Source: Candidatus Poribacteria bacterium (GTDB lineage: Bacteria; Abyssobacteria; SURF-5). From it: a DNA stretch of 24,833 nt. The position numbers were made by a program, and so were the translations under genes. This document shows positions 2,041 to 11,493 of this stretch, piece by piece; positions within the stretch are counted from its first letter, which is position 1; each line of letters begins with the position of its first letter. The notes beneath the pieces were generated by a model. The model worked only from the letters and a program-made list of their open reading frames with translations, was not told the origin of the DNA and ran no database searches. The stretch lies in NCBI GenBank assembly GCA_016215705.1, contig JACRIR010000076.1:1-24833 (forward strand). Reading direction: 5' to 3'.

Positions 2041-3522
2041 GTGGGCGAGGACTTAAGAATCGAGAACGCCAATCAGAGCGGCAAGAAAAAGATCACACGG
2101 CGTGCTTTCGTAGGCGGCGTGGCAGCCGGCGCGGCAGGCGCCTGGGGGTTGTCATACGGCCTCAAGCGCTATAGTTACGACCCCTCGCGGCCGCCCCAGT
2201 TGTACGAATACTTCCTCGACAATTTCTGGTTTAAAGCCGCCGACCTCGAACATCAGGAGATGAACCCGCCGCTCAAAGGAACTCAAAAGGCGGACATCGT
2301 CATCATCGGCGGCGGATTTACCGGACTGTCGGCTGCATACAATCTCATTCGCAAGTTCCCCGATAAGAAGATCGTGTTGCTCGAGGGCGCGTGCTGCGGC
2401 TACGGCGCCAGCGGCCGCAACGGGGGCTTCTGCGACGCAGGCATCCCGGGCTTCATGGATTATCTGGCCAAGAATGGACCGGAAATGGGACGGAAAGCGT
2501 TTGACGCCAGTCTCTATGGAATGAAGCAGATAAAGGAGTTGGTCACCGAACACGGCGTGCAGTGCGACTTCGAGGAAAACGGAATGCTCGAGGCCGCCAT
2601 CGGCGAGGAGCAAGCCAAACATCTGGTGAACCAGCGCGAGAGATACAAATCTATGGGGCTCGAGGCTACCTTGATCCAGGGCAAGGAGCTCGAGGGGGAA
2701 ATCAAGTCGCCTCGCTACGTGGCCGGACTCAAGTTCCCGTATGGCGGCATTGTGAATCCCGCAAAACTCGCAAGAGGAACGAAACCCGTGGTCGAGAGAG
2801 CGGGTGTCGAAATCCGTGAGCGCACTGTCGTAATGCGCGTGACGCCGGGCAAGGTCCACCGGATCGAGACCGAGATGGGCGAGATCAGCGCGCCGATTCT
2901 GGTTCTCGGTCTCAACGGCTATGCGCCCAAACTCGGCTTCTTCAGCGACCGAGTAATGCCTCTGTGCAGCTACGTGATTGCCACTGAGCCTCTGAGCAAG
3001 GCGCAATGGGAATCAATCGGGTGGCAAAATCGGCAAGGCATCGCGGATTTGCGAGTGCTTTTTGATTATCAAAGGCCGTCGGCGGATGGACGCATCGTGA
3101 TCGGCGGTTCTGATTATCCCTACTATGCGGGCGACGCGCTCAGTTCGGGCAACAACAAACCAGTCATCGAGTTACTCACCAAGAGCCTTTTTACGACATT
3201 CCCGCAACTGGAAGGACTGCGCATCGACCACGCATGGGGCGGCACAATGGGCTTCACCCTCGATTTCACTCCGTCCGTAGGCGTGATGGGCGACCACAAA
3301 AACGTCTTCTACGGAGTCGCTTACAATGGCGAGGGCGTCGCCTTCGGTCAAACCGCGGGCCGCATCATCTCAGAACTGATCGCGGGCGAAACGAGCGACC
3401 TCTCGGACCTCTTCGTGGTAAACCACAAGATTCCCTACATGGGGCCCGGTAATGTCAGGATTCTCTTCGCTCGTCTCCAGAAAGCGTATCTCACTCGCTT
3501 TGCTGAAAAAACGGTCAGATAG
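2041..3522 (+). CDS. Tat-exported FAD-dependent oxidoreductase, DAO/PuuB family
   Basis: A 493-residue flavoprotein of the D-amino-acid oxidase (DadA/GlpD/PuuB) superfamily. The FAD-binding segment at residues 86-98 (IVIIGGGFTGLSA) is followed by VLLEG at about 112-116 and GASGRNGGF at 122-130. That last motif is characteristic of gamma-glutamylputrescine oxidase-like members. The N terminus has a twin-arginine signal, ITRRAF at residues 18-23, followed by a small hydrophobic stretch of Gly/Ala. The mature enzyme should therefore fold with FAD in the cytoplasm and be exported, or remain anchored to the membrane. The start is GTG at 2041, supported by GGAGG about 9 bases upstream. It lies 84 bases after the previous flavin oxidase on the same strand. 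A substrate with a primary or secondary amine is likely by family, but unproven. Confidence 0.87.
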   Translation: MGEDLRIENANQSGKKKITRRAFVGGVAAGAAGAWGLSYGLKRYSYDPSRPPQLYEYFLDNFWFKAADLEHQEMNPPLKGTQKADIVIIGGGFTGLSAAYNLIRKFPDKKIVLLEGACCGYGASGRNGGFCDAGIPGFMDYLAKNGPEMGRKAFDASLYGMKQIKELVTEHGVQCDFEENGMLEAAIGEEQAKHLVNQRERYKSMGLEATLIQGKELEGEIKSPRYVAGLKFPYGGIVNPAKLARGTKPVVERAGVEIRERTVVMRVTPGKVHRIETEMGEISAPILVLGLNGYAPKLGFFSDRVMPLCSYVIATEPLSKAQWESIGWQNRQGIADLRVLFDYQRPSADGRIVIGGSDYPYYAGDALSSGNNKPVIELLTKSLFTTFPQLEGLRIDHAWGGTMGFTLDFTPSVGVMGDHKNVFYGVAYNGEGVAFGQTAGRIISELIAGETSDLSDLFVVNHKIPYMGPGNVRILFARLQKAYLTRFAEKTVR

Positions 3523-3800: not shown

Positions 3801-4658
3801 ATGAATTTCGAGCACATCAAATACGAGCTTGACGACCGAATTCTCACGATCACTCTCAATCGTCCCGAGAAGCTGAACGCTTTCACAAGCGCCATGGGAA
3901 CTGAGATGATCGAGGCATTCGATCGCGCGGATGAAGATGATGAAGTGCGTGTCGTCATCGTCACCGGCGCCGGAAGAGGATTCTGCGCCGGGTCCGACCT
4001 GAGCGGCGGGGCCGATACGTTTGACAACGTAACCCGCAAGAATGAAACTCTTGAGGAACATCGTGACGCAGGGGGCGTGGGCGTTCTGAGAATTTACGAG
4101 ATGAAAAAACCGATCATAGCGGCGATAAACGGCCCAGCGGTGGGTGTGGGAATCACTATGACGCTGCCGATGGATATTCGCATCGCGTCGACCGCCGCGA
4201 AGATGGGGTTCGTGTTTGCGCGCCGGGGAATCACAACGGAGGCATGTAGCAGTTGGTTTCTGCCCCGCATAGTGGGGATCAGCCGCGCCGCTGAATGGGT
4301 CTTGACAGGAAGAGTGTTCCCTGCGCAGGAAGCGCTCGATGGAGGGCTTGTCAGCCGCATAGTAAGCCCTGAAGAACTCATGCCGACCGCCGTCAAATTG
4401 GCGCGCGAAATCGCTGATAATACATCAGCGGTCTCCGTAACTCTCTCCCGGCAACTCCTGTGGCGAATGCTGGGGGCAGACCATCCCATGGAAGCCCACA
4501 AGATAGATTCGAAATGCATTTATTACATGGGCAAGTCGCCGGACAGTTACGAAGGCGTGATGGCGTTTCTGGAAAAGCGACCCGCCCGGTTTACGATGAA
4601 ACCGAGCGTCGATATGCCGCCTTTCTATCCGTGGTGGAAAGAACGGCCATTCAAATAG
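3801..4658 (+). CDS. Enoyl-CoA hydratase/isomerase family protein (crotonase fold)
   Basis: A 285-residue crotonase-superfamily enzyme acting on acyl-CoA thioesters in the cytoplasm, by hydration of 2-enoyl-CoA or by double-bond isomerisation. The N-terminal strand LTITLNRPEKLNAF is typical. The first oxyanion-hole segment is GAGRGFCAGSDL (about residues 57-67), and the second lies in AAINGPAVGVG (about 107-117). A Glu at about residue 147 in GITTEACSSWF is the candidate catalytic acid/base. The C-terminal helices carry a charged W-W-K-E-R tail. Its ATG has a GGGAGAA ribosome site about 8 bases upstream. It stands alone, 278 bases after the exported oxidase and convergent with the second TetR gene, so operon membership is uncertain. 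Family is clear; hydratase versus isomerase activity is not resolved. Confidence 0.88.
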   Translation: MNFEHIKYELDDRILTITLNRPEKLNAFTSAMGTEMIEAFDRADEDDEVRVVIVTGAGRGFCAGSDLSGGADTFDNVTRKNETLEEHRDAGGVGVLRIYEMKKPIIAAINGPAVGVGITMTLPMDIRIASTAAKMGFVFARRGITTEACSSWFLPRIVGISRAAEWVLTGRVFPAQEALDGGLVSRIVSPEELMPTAVKLAREIADNTSAVSVTLSRQLLWRMLGADHPMEAHKIDSKCIYYMGKSPDSYEGVMAFLEKRPARFTMKPSVDMPPFYPWWKERPFK

Positions 4659-4777: not shown

Positions 4778-5401
4778 CTATGCTTTCTTCCTTTTCCCCC
4801 TTTCCTTCGCATATGCTTCGATGAAACGTTTTGCAAGATTGGCGCTATTCTTCGGAGAAACATTCTCCGGGTCCATATTCCACAAGTATTCCGTGCCCTC
4901 GTGTAAAGCAATAAGCACGTTTGCAAGTTCTTTGATCTCGACACGAGAAATGCCGGGAGCGATGCCTGAATCTCTAATGTGCGTCGTGATCACTTCGCGA
5001 ATGGACTCAATTTCCATTCTAAAGGTTCCCCGTATTTTCTCATTTCGGAACGCTTCAGACCAAAAGTCATAGAAGATTCCCCCATGTCGCCCCAGCAAGA
5101 CACTGGGATCAAAGAGGTACCTGATCATATTGTCAAAGCGTTCTTTTGAAGACCCATATTGGTTGCCCAGAGCTTTTCCACGGTCGATATCTTCCTCGAT
5201 AAGATGCTTTATGAGCTCTTCGACTATCCTGTTTCGGTTTCCAAAATAGTGATGCAGGCTGCTAAGCTGAATACCGGCCTCCTCGGCCAGTTTTCGGTTT
5301 GAGGCCTTGTGCAGCCCGTATTTCATTATGCAGCGATGGAATGCCTCGAGAATCTCAGCGCGCCTTTTTTTCGCAATGCTCTTTCTTTCGCTTTTCTTCA
5401 T
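4778..5401 (-). CDS. TetR/AcrR-family transcriptional regulator
   Basis: A 207-residue TetR-type repressor with an N-terminal helix-turn-helix (about residues 12-55) ending in LHHYFGNRNRIVEEL, and a C-terminal effector and dimer domain. The frame is open to 5443, but the extra 14 residues are not TetR-like, so I take the ATG at 5401. The gene is divergent from the class IV transaminase at 5715. A perfect 24-bp palindrome lies in the shared upstream region at 5509-5532, between promoter-like boxes for this gene. Autorepression together with control of the transaminase is therefore the simplest reading. It resembles the TetR at 14-625 across the whole length, including RRAEI-x-EA-x2-RCI-x-K-x-G, though the recognition helices differ. 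Ligand unknown, perhaps an amine or CoA ester by context. Confidence 0.9.
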   Translation of the reverse strand: MKKSERKSIAKKRRAEILEAFHRCIMKYGLHKASNRKLAEEAGIQLSSLHHYFGNRNRIVEELIKHLIEEDIDRGKALGNQYGSSKERFDNMIRYLFDPSVLLGRHGGIFYDFWSEAFRNEKIRGTFRMEIESIREVITTHIRDSGIAPGISRVEIKELANVLIALHEGTEYLWNMDPENVSPKNSANLAKRFIEAYAKERGKRKKA

Positions 5402-5482
5402 ATGCCCTGTCCGTTTGTGACGGTGGCCGACTTGCGCCGCCAATTTGTCAAAAATCTCCCCATGCGATTAAGGAATCCTCGC

Positions 5483-5511
5483 TTGACTTTATCGGAAAGT
5501 CATGATAAATT
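5483..5511 (+). promoter_or_regulatory. Candidate promoter toward the class IV transaminase
   Basis: TTGACT at 5483-5488 and TAAATT at 5506-5511 are spaced by 17 bases and face rightward toward the gene at 5715. The -10-like box touches the left end of the 24-bp palindrome, so a bound repressor would block it. Predicted from sequence only. Confidence 0.4.
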
Positions 5512-5531
5512 GTATCGGTCGACCGATACAA
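5502..5531 (-). promoter_or_regulatory. Candidate promoter for the TetR gene
   Basis: On the minus strand TTGTAT (5526-5531) and TATCAT (5502-5507) are spaced by 18 bases and face the TetR start at 5401. Most of the palindrome lies between the two boxes, a usual place for an autorepressing TetR operator. Predicted from sequence only. Confidence 0.4.
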
Positions 5532-5532
5532 T
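5509..5532. promoter_or_regulatory. Perfect 24-bp palindrome, probable TetR operator
   Basis: The half-site ATTGTATCGGTC is followed directly by its exact reverse complement, giving an uninterrupted 24-bp palindrome with the centre GGTCGACC. It lies between the divergent TetR gene (start 5401) and transaminase gene (start 5715) and overlaps promoter-like boxes for both. Perfect symmetry, size and position are what is expected of a TetR-dimer operator. No second copy was noticed elsewhere in the window by eye. Confidence 0.8.
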
Positions 5533-5714: not shown

Positions 5715-6653
5715 ATGAGCGTTAAAGCAAAGAATGCCAAGAAAGACCAGGACGCCGAACTTTATTCCTTGGGCGCCGCCTTCAATGGCAGCGAAATCGT
5801 TCCCATATTGGAAGCGCGCATTCCTATCATCGACATGGGGTTCCTGCATAGCGACGTTTGCTACGATGTGGTGAGCGTGTGGCATGGAAGCTTCTTCAGG
5901 CTCAAAGAACACATGGACCGTTTCGAGAAGAGTTACCAAGGGCTCGGCTTCTCCATGCCGTATACAAAGCAACAAATGAGGCAGATATTGCTGGACATGG
6001 TGGCCCGTTCCCGTCTCAGGGATGCCTACGTCTATATGTGCGCCACACGCGGTTTGCCAAACCTTGACGACCCGCGCAATTTTGAAAAGTACCAACAGAT
6101 GTTCTACGCGTTCGCCGTGGAGTTTATTTGGCTCATCGATCCGGAAGAGCAGAAGATAGGGACAGACGTGATCGTGAGTTCAGTTCCCCGGATACCAAAG
6201 GAATCAGTCGACCCGACCATAAAGAACCATCACTGGGGCGATTTAACGCGGGCTGACCTTGAGGCGCATAAGAAAGGCGCCAGGACTGCATTTCTTCTTG
6301 ATCTCGAGGGAAATCTCACCGAAGGTCCGGGCTTCAACATATTTGTGATTAAGGACGGGAAGCTTCTCACACCGGATTCGAATGTCCTCTTAGGTATCAC
6401 ACGGCTCACAGTGTTCGAACTCGCCAAAGAGATGAAGATAGAGGCGCGAGCATGTAAAGTCCCACTGGCGACATTGCGCGCGGCTGACGAGATATTCATG
6501 TGCACCACGGCAGGCGGAATAATGCCCATTAAATCGCTGGACGATGTGCCTATCAGCGGCGGCAAGCCCGGCCCAATCACCATGAGATTGCACAAGGCAT
6601 TCTGGAAAGCTCATGACGACCCGAAATACCTGACACCGGTAGACTACAAGTAA
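5715..6653 (+). CDS. PLP fold-class IV transaminase, (R)-amine transaminase-like
   Basis: A 312-residue pyridoxal-phosphate enzyme of fold type IV, the family of branched-chain and D-amino-acid transaminases. The Schiff-base lysine is K170 in IKNHHWGDLTRA, and the Glu that contacts the PLP ring nitrogen is E203 in LTEGPGFNIF. Three segments resemble the (R)-selective amine:pyruvate transaminases known from Aspergillus and Arthrobacter more than ordinary IlvE. These are GFLHSDVCYDV at 42-52, the HWGDLTR context, and DEIFMCTTAGGIMP at 258-271 with a following GPIT. This comparison is from memory. The ATG follows an AGGAAG ribosome site. The gene is divergent from a TetR gene across a perfect palindromic operator, so it is probably induced by a ligand of that regulator. 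D-amino acid or branched-chain substrates remain possible; transaminase activity is secure, the amine specificity is inference. Confidence 0.87.
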   Translation: MSVKAKNAKKDQDAELYSLGAAFNGSEIVPILEARIPIIDMGFLHSDVCYDVVSVWHGSFFRLKEHMDRFEKSYQGLGFSMPYTKQQMRQILLDMVARSRLRDAYVYMCATRGLPNLDDPRNFEKYQQMFYAFAVEFIWLIDPEEQKIGTDVIVSSVPRIPKESVDPTIKNHHWGDLTRADLEAHKKGARTAFLLDLEGNLTEGPGFNIFVIKDGKLLTPDSNVLLGITRLTVFELAKEMKIEARACKVPLATLRAADEIFMCTTAGGIMPIKSLDDVPISGGKPGPITMRLHKAFWKAHDDPKYLTPVDYK

Positions 6654-7373: not shown

Positions 7374-8618
7374 ATGAGAGACGTGTATGTTATCGGCGCT
7401 GGAATGACCCGCTTCGGCAAGTACATGGAACGCAACATGAAGTCCCTCGTCGAAGAAGCGGTTACGAACACACTGAAGCACGCCGGCATCGACAAGTCGG
7501 AACTGCAAGCGGCGTGGGTCGGCAACTCCGCGCAGGGGATTGTGACGGGCCAGGAGAGCATTCGCGGACAAGTCGTTCTGCGGCCGCTCGGAATCGGTGC
7601 GATACCGGTAATGAATGTCGAGAATGCCTGCGCATCCGCCTCGTCGGCTTTTTACGGCGCGTGGATGGGCATCGCCTGCGGGGTGTATGACGTCGCGCTT
7701 GCGCTCGGGATGGAGAAACTGGTTCAGGCAGATAAGAAGAAGATGTTTGAGACCTTCTGGGCGGCCACGGACGTCGAGATTATGGAAGCTTTCAAAGCGA
7801 TGATGAAGGTGGAAGAGGAGAAGAAGAAGGCGATGGGCGCAAAAGCGGCCGGCGAAGGCGGCGCAGGGCAAAGCCGGAGCGCTTTCATGGACATATATTC
7901 AATGGCTGCGCGCAACCACATGAAGAAGTATGGGACAACGCAAAGGCAGTTGGCCGTGATCTCGGCGAAGAATCATTTTCACAGCTCGATGAACCCTTAC
8001 GCGCAATATCAGGTAAACATGACAGTCGAAGAGGTTCTGGCCGCGCCAGAGGTTTCATACCCTCTCACCCGCCCCATGTGCTCACCGGTTGGCGATGGCG
8101 CTGCGGCCGCGATTCTGTGCTCGAAGGACTACATAAAGAAGACCGGCGCTCAGAGGCCCGTCAAGGTGAGGGCTTGCGTACTCGCTTCGGGACGCGACCG
8201 CGATTTTGATGAAGAAGATATTGGAAAACGCCTCTCTCGCAAGGCATACGAAGTGGCAGGCGTCGGCCCGAAAGACATCAATGTCGCCGAGGTGCATGAC
8301 GCAACCGCATTCGGAGAACTGCACCAGAGCGAGGCCCTGGGGTTCTGCGGAGAGGGAGAAGGCGGACCGTTCGCGGAATCCGGCGCAACTACACTCGGTG
8401 GCAAAGTGCCGATTAATACCAGCGGAGGGCTCGAGTCGCGCGGTCACCCAATAGGCGCAACCGGCCTTGCACAGATAGCCGATCTGGTGTGGCAGCTCAG
8501 AGGCGAATGCGGCAAGAGGCAGGCTGAAGGCGCTCGCCTTGCGCTCGCGGAGAATGGCGGCGGCAACATCGGGATCGAAGAAGCCGCCATGGTGATAACG
8601 ATTCTGGAAAAGGCATGA
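7374..8618 (+). CDS. Thiolase family protein (SCP2/acetyl-CoA acetyltransferase type)
   Basis: A 414-residue thiolase acting on acyl-CoA, either condensing acetyl-CoA units or cleaving 3-ketoacyl-CoA. The nucleophilic Cys is C86 in ENACASASS. The catalytic histidines are H308 in AEVHDATAFGE and H358 in SRGHPIGATG, the pattern of the SCP2/SCPx-like thiolase branch. ENGGGNIGIEEAA near the C terminus is the usual final glycine-rich segment. A Lys/Glu-rich and Gly/Ala-rich insertion lies at about residues 145-166. The ATG has a strong AGGAG ribosome site about 10-14 bases upstream. It is followed after 12 bases by the P1 peptidase gene, so the two are co-transcribed. The small OB-fold DUF35 partner often encoded beside such thiolases is not present in the window. 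Catalytic family secure, substrate unknown. Confidence 0.9.
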   Translation: MRDVYVIGAGMTRFGKYMERNMKSLVEEAVTNTLKHAGIDKSELQAAWVGNSAQGIVTGQESIRGQVVLRPLGIGAIPVMNVENACASASSAFYGAWMGIACGVYDVALALGMEKLVQADKKKMFETFWAATDVEIMEAFKAMMKVEEEKKKAMGAKAAGEGGAGQSRSAFMDIYSMAARNHMKKYGTTQRQLAVISAKNHFHSSMNPYAQYQVNMTVEEVLAAPEVSYPLTRPMCSPVGDGAAAAILCSKDYIKKTGAQRPVKVRACVLASGRDRDFDEEDIGKRLSRKAYEVAGVGPKDINVAEVHDATAFGELHQSEALGFCGEGEGGPFAESGATTLGGKVPINTSGGLESRGHPIGATGLAQIADLVWQLRGECGKRQAEGARLALAENGGGNIGIEEAAMVITILEKA

Positions 8619-8630
8619 GGAGAATACTTG

Positions 8631-9704
8631 ATGGCAACTGAGCGTTGCCGGGCGAGGGAATTCGGACTGGTTATAGGCGGATTGCAGACCGGCGCCCATA
8701 ATGCGATCACGGACGTGGCGGGCGTGCGCGTGGGCCATCGTACGGTCATCAAAGGCGAGGGCAAATGCAAGATCGGCGAAGGGCCGGTTCGCACGGGTGT
8801 CACCGCAATTCTTCCCGCGCCCGATGACCTTTTTGTCAGTAAGTTGCAAGCGGGAGTCCACATTATCAACGGGTTCGGCAAGAGCGTCGGGCTCATGCAG
8901 GTAGCCGAAGTCGGAACAATTGAAACACCAATTCTGATAACGAATACGCTCAATGTGAGCAAGGTAGCGGACGGGCTTTTGGATTATCTTATCATGGATA
9001 AGGGACTCGATGCGCCGTCCATCAATCCCGTCGTCATGGAATGCAACGACTACTATCTGAGCGACATCTGTGGTCGCCACATGGGGAAAACGGAGGTAGT
9101 GGCCGCAATCGAGGCGGCATCGGACGGGCTCGTGACAGAAGGTTCGGTCGGCGCGGGCACGGGAACAGCCGCATACGGATTCAAGGGCGGCGTCGGCACG
9201 TCATCGCGGATTGTCTCTTGCGGCGAGCAAAGATTCACGGTGGGGGCGCTGGTTGTTACCAACATGGGCAAGCCGGACCAATTGAGAATCTGCGGAAAGC
9301 CCGTCGGCAAAAAACTTATGGAACAGGGAGTTGACCCGGCGTTGGGCGGCTCTATTATCATGGTACTGGCGACCAACGCGCCTCTCTCATCGAATCAGCT
9401 TCGCCGCGTGGCCGCCCGCGCCACGCACGGACTGGCGCGCACCGGCAGTTATTCCGGGAATACGAGCGGCGATATCGTACTGGCTTTTTCAACGGCAAGG
9501 CGCATGCCTCTACTACCCGAGCAGCCGATTCTGACTTTGCCCGAAGTGAGCGACAACCACATCGACATGTTTTTCACGGCTGCTGCTGACGCAATAGAGG
9601 AGTCGATCCTTAACGCCATGTTTATGGCTGAGACCCTCATCGGCCGCGACGGCAACACGCTCTGCGCCCTCCCTCTCGACAAGGTCAAGCCGTTGCTGAA
9701 ATAG
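8631..9704 (+). CDS. P1-family N-terminal nucleophile peptidase (DmpA/BapA-like aminopeptidase)
   Basis: A 357-residue member of the P1 peptidase family (MEROPS S58), which includes DmpA L-aminopeptidase/D-esterase and BapA beta-peptidyl aminopeptidases. The N terminus ITDVAGVRVGHRTV is diagnostic. So are RTGVTAILP, the NGFGK segment near residue 80, and the central glycine-rich EGSVGAGTGT. These enzymes cut themselves before a Ser that becomes the nucleophile. Here the site is GNTSGDIVLAFSTA with Ser279. The residue before Ser is Thr, whereas Gly or Asn is usual in characterised members as I recall. A TTG in frame at 8628 precedes the ATG at 8631; I chose the ATG, with GAGGAG at about 8617-8622. 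It lies between the thiolase and a solute symporter in one + strand block, suggesting hydrolysis of an amide or small peptide. Cytoplasmic, with no signal peptide. Confidence 0.88.
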   Translation: MATERCRAREFGLVIGGLQTGAHNAITDVAGVRVGHRTVIKGEGKCKIGEGPVRTGVTAILPAPDDLFVSKLQAGVHIINGFGKSVGLMQVAEVGTIETPILITNTLNVSKVADGLLDYLIMDKGLDAPSINPVVMECNDYYLSDICGRHMGKTEVVAAIEAASDGLVTEGSVGAGTGTAAYGFKGGVGTSSRIVSCGEQRFTVGALVVTNMGKPDQLRICGKPVGKKLMEQGVDPALGGSIIMVLATNAPLSSNQLRRVAARATHGLARTGSYSGNTSGDIVLAFSTARRMPLLPEQPILTLPEVSDNHIDMFFTAAADAIEESILNAMFMAETLIGRDGNTLCALPLDKVKPLLK

Positions 9705-9741: not shown

Positions 9742-11493
9742 ATGCATGTTATTGATTGGCTCATAGTAGTCGCATATTGCCTTCTATCGCTTGTGATCGG
9801 CTTCATCTTTACGAAGCGGGCAGGCAGGAGCCTTTCTGATTTTATTCTTTCAGGCCGGGATCTCCCTTGGTGGCTCGCGGGAACCTCGATGGTCGCCACA
9901 ACCTTTGCCGCCGACACGCCGCTTGCAATCACCGGAATAGTACGCACAAAAGGAATCGCGGGCAACTGGTTCTGGTGGAACCTCGTGATGAGCAGCATGC
10001 TTTGGGCGTTTTTCTACGCACGGTTGTGGCGTCGCACGGGCGTGCTGACCGATGTCGAATTCATCGAGTTGCGCTATTCCGGCAAGCCTGCCGCCTTCTT
10101 GCGTGCTCTTAAAGCTTTCTACTCCGCAATTCTGGTGAACTGCATCGTGATGGGGTGGGTCATCCTCGCGATGACGAAAATCGGCAAAGTCGTGTTCGAG
10201 ATGTATGACATCAATGCGGTTCGCGCGCCGATTATCAACACGGAGATTCCCCTCGATACAGTTGTCACCGTTGCGTCCGTCCTTATTGCCCTTGTTTATT
10301 CCGTGCTCTCCGGTATGTGGGGAGTCGTGGTCACGGACTTCTTCCAATTTGCAATCGCGATGTCCGGCTCGATTGCGCTCGCGGTGATTGCTGTTCGGCA
10401 CATCGGGGGAATCGCAAACATCAGGCCGATGATAACCGCTGCGGCCGCTGCGCCGCCTTCGGTTCTTCGATTTGCGCCTGAATTTGGAGCGGGCCGGCTT
10501 GCGCTCATCACTTTCGGCGTGTATCTGGGCGTACAATGGTGGGCTTTCAGGAATGCTGACGGAGGCGAATACATCGGCTTGCGGGCAATGGCATGCCGCG
10601 ATGAGAAACATGCGCGCATGTCGCTCCTTTGGTACAGCTTCGCGCATTACGTGCTGCGGCCGTGGCCGTGGATATTGGTCGCGCTCGTATCGATAATAGT
10701 CTATCCCGATCTCGCCGACCCGGAATCGGGTTACCCGAAAATGATGATCGATTTCCTTCCGATTGGCCTGCGGGGTCTGATGGTCGCCTCGATTCTCGCG
10801 GCTTTCATGTCGACGGTCGATACGCATCTCCACTGGGGAGCGTCATACCTGGCCAACGACATATACAAGAGATTCATTCATCCGGAGGCAAGCGAGAAAC
10901 ACTATGTGCTTGCCTCGCGCGCCGCAATGGTGATCATGGCGGGGCTTGCAGTGTGGACAAGTTCGATCATGAATTCAATCGAATGGGCGTGGAAATTCCT
11001 CGTGGCAATCGGGGCAGGGATAGGTCCTGTGTATCTGCTGAGATGGTACTGGTGGCGCATCAACGCATGGTCCGAAATAACGGCAATGCTCTGTTCGTTA
11101 GTGACCGCTATTGCAATCTTCTCGTTCACGTCACTCGGTGCGAGAGAATTTGAGGGCATCCGGCTCCTGATCATAGTGGCAATCTCGACAACGGCGTGGC
11201 TCGCGGTTACGCTGCTCAGCGCGCCGGTGGACAAGCGCAATCTGCGCACGTTCTATGAGCGCGTAAGACCCGGAGGTCCGGGCTGGCGTCCTATTGAGCA
11301 GGAGTTCGGACTCACATCAATCCACAGCGGATTGCGCGACATCGGCGGCGCCCTCAGTGGCTCGGTATTCATTTACACGTCTCTGTTCGCGAGCGGAAAA
11401 CTGCTCCTCGGTTTTCCCGCCTCGACCTGGTTTCCGCTCGGAATGGCGGCGCTCGCCGCAGGTGGAATCATGCTCGCCTGTCTCAAAGATTGA
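9742..11493 (+). CDS. Sodium:solute symporter family (SSS) transporter
   Basis: A 583-residue integral membrane protein with about 13 hydrophobic segments, of the Na+/solute symporter family (PutP/SGLT type, LeuT fold). The N-terminal helix MHVIDWLIVVAYCLLSLVIG is followed by DFILSGRDLPWWLAGTSMVATTFAADTPLAITG. That is the typical GR-x-LPWW-x2-G-x-S loop leading into the unwound first core helix. A helical pair containing STVDTHLHWGASYLANDIYKRF (near residue 360) also matches the family. The long C-terminal part has additional hydrophobic segments around a hydrophilic stretch with RVRPGGPGW. It starts 37 bases after the P1 peptidase stop without a strong ribosome site and is probably in the same transcript. 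It may take up the substrate handled by the neighbouring enzymes. The substrate cannot be named. Confidence 0.88.
   Translation: MHVIDWLIVVAYCLLSLVIGFIFTKRAGRSLSDFILSGRDLPWWLAGTSMVATTFAADTPLAITGIVRTKGIAGNWFWWNLVMSSMLWAFFYARLWRRTGVLTDVEFIELRYSGKPAAFLRALKAFYSAILVNCIVMGWVILAMTKIGKVVFEMYDINAVRAPIINTEIPLDTVVTVASVLIALVYSVLSGMWGVVVTDFFQFAIAMSGSIALAVIAVRHIGGIANIRPMITAAAAAPPSVLRFAPEFGAGRLALITFGVYLGVQWWAFRNADGGEYIGLRAMACRDEKHARMSLLWYSFAHYVLRPWPWILVALVSIIVYPDLADPESGYPKMMIDFLPIGLRGLMVASILAAFMSTVDTHLHWGASYLANDIYKRFIHPEASEKHYVLASRAAMVIMAGLAVWTSSIMNSIEWAWKFLVAIGAGIGPVYLLRWYWWRINAWSEITAMLCSLVTAIAIFSFTSLGAREFEGIRLLIIVAISTTAWLAVTLLSAPVDKRNLRTFYERVRPGGPGWRPIEQEFGLTSIHSGLRDIGGALSGSVFIYTSLFASGKLLLGFPASTWFPLGMAALAAGGIMLACLKD

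Follow-up and report, generated by a model that had tools for sequence, protein, structure and literature searches.

A member of the (R)-amine transaminase group with a changed large pocket, conserved in Candidatus Abyssobacteria

The transaminase gene and its surroundings

The window, by which we mean the whole stretch of 24,833 nucleotides that was analysed, contains a stop-free open reading frame that translates to a protein of 312 amino acids and is preceded by a putative ribosome-binding site, AAAGGAAG (Table 1). Its product was found to consist of a single Pfam domain, PF01063 (class IV aminotransferase), which scored 157 bits against a cut-off of 28.5. The original prediction had drawn attention to the class IV residues K170 and E203 and to four motifs, GFLHSDVCYDV (residues 42-52), HWGDLTR (173-179), TEGPGFN (202-208) and DEIFMCTTAGGIMP (258-271), and all of these were found as written. 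In an alignment to an A. terreus-type (R)-transaminase, both residues fell on their known counterparts, the catalytic Lys180 and the N1-binding Glu213.

Table 1. Positions of the transaminase gene, of its active-site and pocket codons, and of the divergent regulatory features in the window
Feature	Position	Strand	Basis
TetR-family regulator, divergent, with BetI-type C-terminal domain	4778..5443	-	PF00440 (TetR_N), PF13977
Promoter-like site TTGACT-17-TAAATT facing the transaminase; -10 overlaps the palindrome	5483..5511	+	9/12 matches
Candidate TetR operator: perfect 24-bp palindrome ATTGTATCGGTC/GACCGATACAAT in the divergent intergenic region	5509..5532	.	sequence scan
Fold-type IV transaminase, (R)-amine transaminase group, 312 aa	5715..6653	+	motifs, PDB phmmer, Pfam, tree, Foldseek
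Codons H45 to V52 (H45 and Y50, large pocket; V52, small pocket), as in characterised (R)-transaminases	5847..5870	+	alignment, PMC3907554
Codon Y107, in place of the fungal large-pocket Glu117	6033..6035	+	alignment
Codon D118, in place of Arg128	6066..6068	+	alignment
Codon R121, aligned with Arthrobacter loop Arg138	6075..6077	+	alignment; loop Arg in PMC5131300
Codon K170, catalytic lysine, equivalent to A. terreus Lys180	6222..6224	+	alignment
Codon H172, in place of Leu182	6228..6230	+	alignment
Codon E203, PLP N1-binding (Glu213)	6321..6323	+	alignment
Codons T264-T265-A266, small-pocket beta-turn	6504..6512	+	alignment

The transaminase gene and the TetR-family gene are divergent and lie 271 bp apart. 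The region between them contains only one perfect long palindrome, with 12-bp arms and no gap, and we estimate the chance of such a palindrome in 271 bp at about 1.6e-5 (4^-12 x length). Four promoter-like sites were seen in the 2 kb scanned, against 2.3 expected by chance.

Elsewhere in the window, two genes resembling FAD-dependent amine or amino-acid oxidoreductases (637-1956 and 2041-3522; PF01593, PF01266) lie upstream of the transaminase and are adjoined by a second, BetI-like TetR gene (14-625), while a gene for a peptidase of family S58 (DmpA type; 8628-9704) followed by one for a sodium/solute symporter (9742-11493) lies downstream. Judged by the starts of their translations, several minus-strand open reading frames between 15608 and 24167 resemble a hydrogenase cluster with its Hyp maturation genes.

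Placement in the family and distribution

When the protein was compared with PDB chains by phmmer, the 26 best chains all belonged to the (R)-transaminase group, with E-values from 2.4e-89 to 1.1e-64; 8zm7 was the best match (2.4e-89), and the group further included 6snl, 6fte, 4ce5, 6xwb, 4cmd, 6xu3, 4chi, 7dbe and 3wwh among others, some of its entries bearing the depositor name "branched-chain amino acid aminotransferase". This likeness covers the full length of the protein, is far beyond chance and corresponds to about 40-49% identity to (R)-amine transaminases. After the group came a gap, with 7p3t at 1.3e-49 and 5mqz at 1.4e-44, while Thermus IlvE and the Bacillus D-amino-acid transaminase reached 1.1e-28 and 4.2e-28, respectively. 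An AlphaFold model built from four aligned sequences (mean pLDDT 63.4, with several loops, including pocket loops, below 50) was used for comparison of the fold and not for pocket geometry, and in Foldseek all 50 of the matches listed belonged to the (R)-transaminase group. The model contains a low-confidence helix at residues 3-16; an N-terminal helix of about 20 residues is a feature of the group.

A tree of 39 proteins was calculated with IQ-TREE under LG+C20. Its rows comprised the window protein, three full orthologues, 11 plasmid-borne relatives, paralogues, the Bacillus D-amino-acid transaminase, ten solved (R)-transaminases (including a near-identical Shinella HZN7 protein) and six IlvE-type references; the references were taken from HMMER alignments or checked against PDB chains, and two short or misread paralogue rows were left out of the final tree as distorting. 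The (R)-group, together with the window protein, was split from the IlvE and D-amino-acid enzymes with a support of 100/100. Within this part of the tree the window protein and its orthologues from SURF_17, G002 and G003 formed a clade (100/100) that was sister to all the solved (R)-transaminases (95/85). A topology with this clade outside the other members of the (R)-group was not rejected in an AU test (p 0.31), so that it may branch either inside or beside the group.

The same genome encodes three other full class IV proteins, which are 27-32% identical to the transaminase: two are IlvE-like (C219 and C31) and one is PabC/DAT-like (C10), its frame overlapping a PabB-like gene. We count the presence of these paralogues in favour of the (R)-group assignment. 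IlvE and the Bacillus D-amino-acid transaminases share the fold class and the catalytic Lys and Glu with the window protein but are much less similar to it, and their carboxylate-binding residues are absent from it. Membership of D-alanine transaminases was rejected by the tree, the signature residues and the PDB E-values alike, and a Bacillus-type D-amino-acid transaminase was rejected as well, since the carboxylate trap Arg98/His100 corresponds to L117/D119 when the loops after TRG are set side by side. By sequence, fold and residues, then, the protein belongs to the (R)-group, and it is firmly of neither the IlvE nor the D-alanine transaminase type. The closeness to fungal and Arthrobacter (R)-amine transaminases that had been proposed from the motifs was thus borne out by PDB phmmer, tree and Foldseek, and the class IV tree that had been proposed as a check placed the protein within or beside that group.

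The transaminase is carried once, at high similarity, by all three of the Candidatus Abyssobacteria genomes examined (G000, G001 and G002), the orthologues from G001 (taken as SURF_17; locus L011 on QZKI01000079) and G002 being 76-78% identical to the window protein. Among 395 genomes of a phylum taken as Desulfobacterota it was found in two (loci L010 and L012), and 287 further bacteria sampled from the whole domain yielded no match at 1e-50. Taken over both phyla, the orthologues are 75-86% identical to the window protein. Between those of G003 and G005 the identity is 92% over 218 amino acids; the one at L012 is cut by the end of its 6.5-kb contig (JAQYVQ010000216) and is 86% identical to the window protein over 217 amino acids and 92% to that of G003. 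With dN at about 0.04-0.16 and dS at 0.8-1.8 (large or saturated), the gene is under purifying selection.

Two orthologues begin with a Lys/Ala-rich, histone H1-like tail, of 52 residues with 19 lysines in SURF_17 (L011:353-1411) and of 93 residues with 27 lysines in G002 (L014:1495-2808, minus strand). A purine-rich ribosome-binding site precedes both, and at this place the window protein is limited to about 12 residues.

More distant relatives were found in 53 plasmid records (Rhizobiales, Burkholderiales and others), with 40-49% identity among the matches listed. A viral collection yielded one partial relative (46%), and a phage collection yielded weak matches only (27-34%), of which those annotated were IlvE. 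Solved bacterial (R)-transaminases come from Arthrobacter, Shinella, Pseudonocardia, Mycobacterium, Mycolicibacterium, Ancylobacter and Sphingopyxis, and, as a 2020 review reports, 17 (R)-selective enzymes had been identified through a motif in 2010 (PMC7228992). The supposed rarity of a bacterial member is a weak premise, given that several such enzymes have already been solved and that relatives occur in the plasmid records.

The substrate pocket

In the A. terreus enzyme the small pocket is formed by Val62, Phe115, Thr274, Thr275 and Ala276, and the large pocket by His55, Tyr60, Phe115, Glu117, Arg128, Leu182 and Trp184 (PMC3907554); the equivalents in A. fumigatus, and a comparison with IlvE, have been described (PMC8320979). 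The small pocket is kept in the window protein as V52, Y105 and T264-T265-A266, and the Tyr at position 115 is also present in the Shinella and Pseudonocardia enzymes. Part of the large pocket is kept too, with H45, Y50 and W174 equivalent to His55, Tyr60 and Trp184. Of the remaining residues, Glu117 is replaced by Tyr107 (Phe in the SURF_17 and G002 orthologues) and Arg128 by Asp118 (Glu in the same two). Leu182 is replaced by His172 in all five orthologues, with Leu, Phe or Tyr at this position in all other rows of the (R)-group. The Glu117 and Leu182 of the fungal-type large pocket are thus both absent from the window protein. Solved bacterial members likewise have other residues in place of Glu117 (Met, Ser, Asn), and Glu117 is therefore not defining for the (R)-group as a whole. 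Loop arginines, to which dual substrate recognition is ascribed, occupy different positions among the enzymes, yet their guanidinium groups localise similarly in space (PMC5131300); position 128 is Asp or Glu in the orthologues, but the window protein carries R121 at the position of Arthrobacter Arg138, in a loop modelled with a pLDDT below 50.

Compared enzyme by enzyme, the window protein is 42-45% identical over its full length to the fungal (R)-transaminases (A. terreus 4CE5, A. fumigatus 4CHI, Nectria 4CMD, Exophiala 6FTE/6SNL) and shares their fold and PLP residues, but differs from them in the three large-pocket positions above, in the Tyr for Phe115 and in its shorter N-terminus. Arthrobacter sp. 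KNK168 (3WWH, the parent of ATA-117), likewise bacterial, has an enzyme to which it is 41% identical; here Y107 stands for Ser and H172 for Phe, and the two lie in separate clades of the tree. The Shinella enzyme (6XU3) and the plasmid-borne proteobacterial relatives, also bacterial and 40-49% identical, mostly have Tyr at the Phe115 position, but their large-pocket residues and gene neighbourhoods differ from those of the window protein.

The original prediction had named pocket residues matching the (R)-amine clade as support. Such a match was found for the small pocket, the PLP contacts and H45/Y50/W174, but not for the positions of Glu117, Arg128 and Leu182, which are changed in all orthologues, so that the amine substrate of the fungal enzymes is not simply transferable. 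From the comparison of residues, the change in the large pocket may concern its amine side, with the pyruvate side retained, and the altered positions (Y/F107, D/E118 and H172) suggest a natural substrate unlike those of the fungal enzymes.

An alternative that we regard as quite possible, though not as the favoured one, is that the protein acts in vivo mainly as a D-amino-acid transaminase or as a generalist of the (R)-group, its amine activity being incidental. D-amino-acid and (R)-group enzymes bind the substrate with the same face, CpuTA1 and MgiTA1 perform both activities (PMC5131300), and the large pocket of the window protein is more polar than the fungal one, through Tyr107, Asp118 and His172 together with the loop R121; a D-amino acid dehydrogenase gene is also found near one plasmid relative. 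Against this, the trap R98/H100 of the Bacillus D-amino-acid transaminase (PMC3907554) is the one that reads L117/D119 here, and the window protein stands apart from that enzyme in the tree.

Regulation, neighbouring genes and proposed role

The -10 region of the promoter-like site facing the transaminase is overlapped by the palindrome, and such an overlap is a usual place for a TetR operator. No second copy of the palindrome with fewer than two mismatches was found in the genome; with up to three mismatches it occurs at 15 places, against nine for a control. A wider TetR regulon was rejected, since no other site in the genome qualifies as a good operator. In the readable flanks of the orthologues no TetR relative was found, two of the contigs ending about 0.5 kb upstream and a third cutting the gene, and SURF_17 and G002 have their closest TetR relatives (40-46% identical) on contigs other than that of the transaminase. 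The idea that the transaminase has its own TetR switch is plausible as far as the divergent gene and the palindrome over the promoter-like site are concerned, but finds no counterpart beside the orthologues. From the arrangement of these sites, local control of the transaminase by the TetR protein through the candidate operator is plausible.

The TetR protein could instead control neighbouring genes of fatty-acid type, those for an enoyl-CoA hydratase (3801-4658) and a thiolase-like protein (7374-8618), with the transaminase adjoining by accident. In favour of this, relatives near the four orthologues were lacking for every window gene except the transaminase, but the only perfect long intergenic palindrome overlaps a promoter-like site that faces the transaminase, and its lack of a second good copy in the genome is as expected for a local regulator; we consider such an accident less likely than not, though a real possibility. 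A conserved gene neighbourhood was rejected as such, the downstream S58 peptidase and symporter genes not being common to the orthologous loci.

A partnership with a glycyl-radical lyase in an anaerobic pathway, the enzyme acting on an amino compound that the lyase forms or uses up, appears improbable. In G003 (Desulfobacterota) a glycyl-radical enzyme gene ends 11 nt ahead of the start of the orthologue, with GGAG in the gap, and the product of that gene bears the GCVEP eliminase motif. It has 790 amino acids, is PFL-like and nearest to B12-independent glycerol dehydratase, and its gene is preceded by one of NrfD type. Such a link was seen at one orthologous locus only, two other contigs ending within about 0.5 kb upstream, and the glycyl-radical enzymes of Abyssobacteria do not exceed 39% identity to the one in G003, with none in the window. 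The neighbour is thus a lead towards an anaerobic pathway, seen once.

At L025:7626-10948 the glycyl-radical enzyme and the transaminase orthologue apparently form one operon. In an alignment of the G003 glycyl-radical enzyme, the columns taken as His281/Ser282 of glycerol dehydratase read Ser/Ala. The 8.9-Mb G003 genome (PL23a_bin.76) has 25 matches to glycyl-radical enzymes.

That the protein is an IlvE branched-chain amino acid transaminase of unusual sequence, as some database names of its relatives and the best NCBIfam models would have it, is barely credible, since no NCBIfam model exceeded its cut-off and the two branched-chain models scored far below their curated ones (181/363 and 177/246), the residues of the IlvE L-carboxylate site (Arg97, Gly39, Tyr164 and a Gly-Thr turn; PMC8320979) are absent (V52 for Gly, Y107 for Arg, W174 for Tyr, T264 at the turn), the tree excludes it at the 100/100 split, and two proper IlvE-like paralogues are already present in the genome.

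We hold it to be highly probable, on the other hand, that the protein is an (R)-group transaminase, PLP-dependent, of fold type IV and D/(R)-facing, with the activity of its family and probable repression by the TetR protein; activity, dimeric state, stereochemistry and acceptor are all taken from the family. As an (R)-group transaminase it would most likely be a homodimer in which K170 forms the internal aldimine and E203 holds the ring nitrogen of PLP. The small pocket of V52, Y105 and T264-T265-A266 would accommodate a carboxylate or a group the size of a methyl, and the large pocket of H45, Y50 and W174 a bulky group, the carboxylate of pyruvate probably being held by the loop arginine R121. 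Amino groups would then be exchanged between an (R)-amine or a D-amino acid on one side and a keto acid, for instance pyruvate, on the other, and, by analogy with the family, such a transfer is most likely also the role in the cell. The divergent TetR protein, bound to the palindrome over the -10 region, would probably repress the gene.

A bolder proposal, which we offer as speculative, is that of a separate (R)-/D-selective subfamily in uncultivated anaerobes, whose polar large pocket lined by His, Tyr and Asp would serve an undescribed natural substrate; in the genome of the window this substrate would act through TetR as the inducer, and in a relative the subfamily would be tied to glycyl-radical chemistry.

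(R)-amine transaminases are used in making drugs, and to our knowledge little is known of their physiological substrates. A published description of Candidatus Abyssubacteria does not mention any transaminase. What is new is the clade, a conserved (R)-group transaminase with a different large pocket in an uncultivated subsurface lineage for which we found none described, and the protein adds one more member to a familiar kind of enzyme and is not a surprise. It brings an enzyme with a different pocket to the set available for biocatalysis, and the conserved clade of subsurface anaerobes, in which the large pocket is fixed but differs, together with a candidate regulator that may respond to a ligand and one glycyl-radical neighbour, offers a testable route to the natural substrate.
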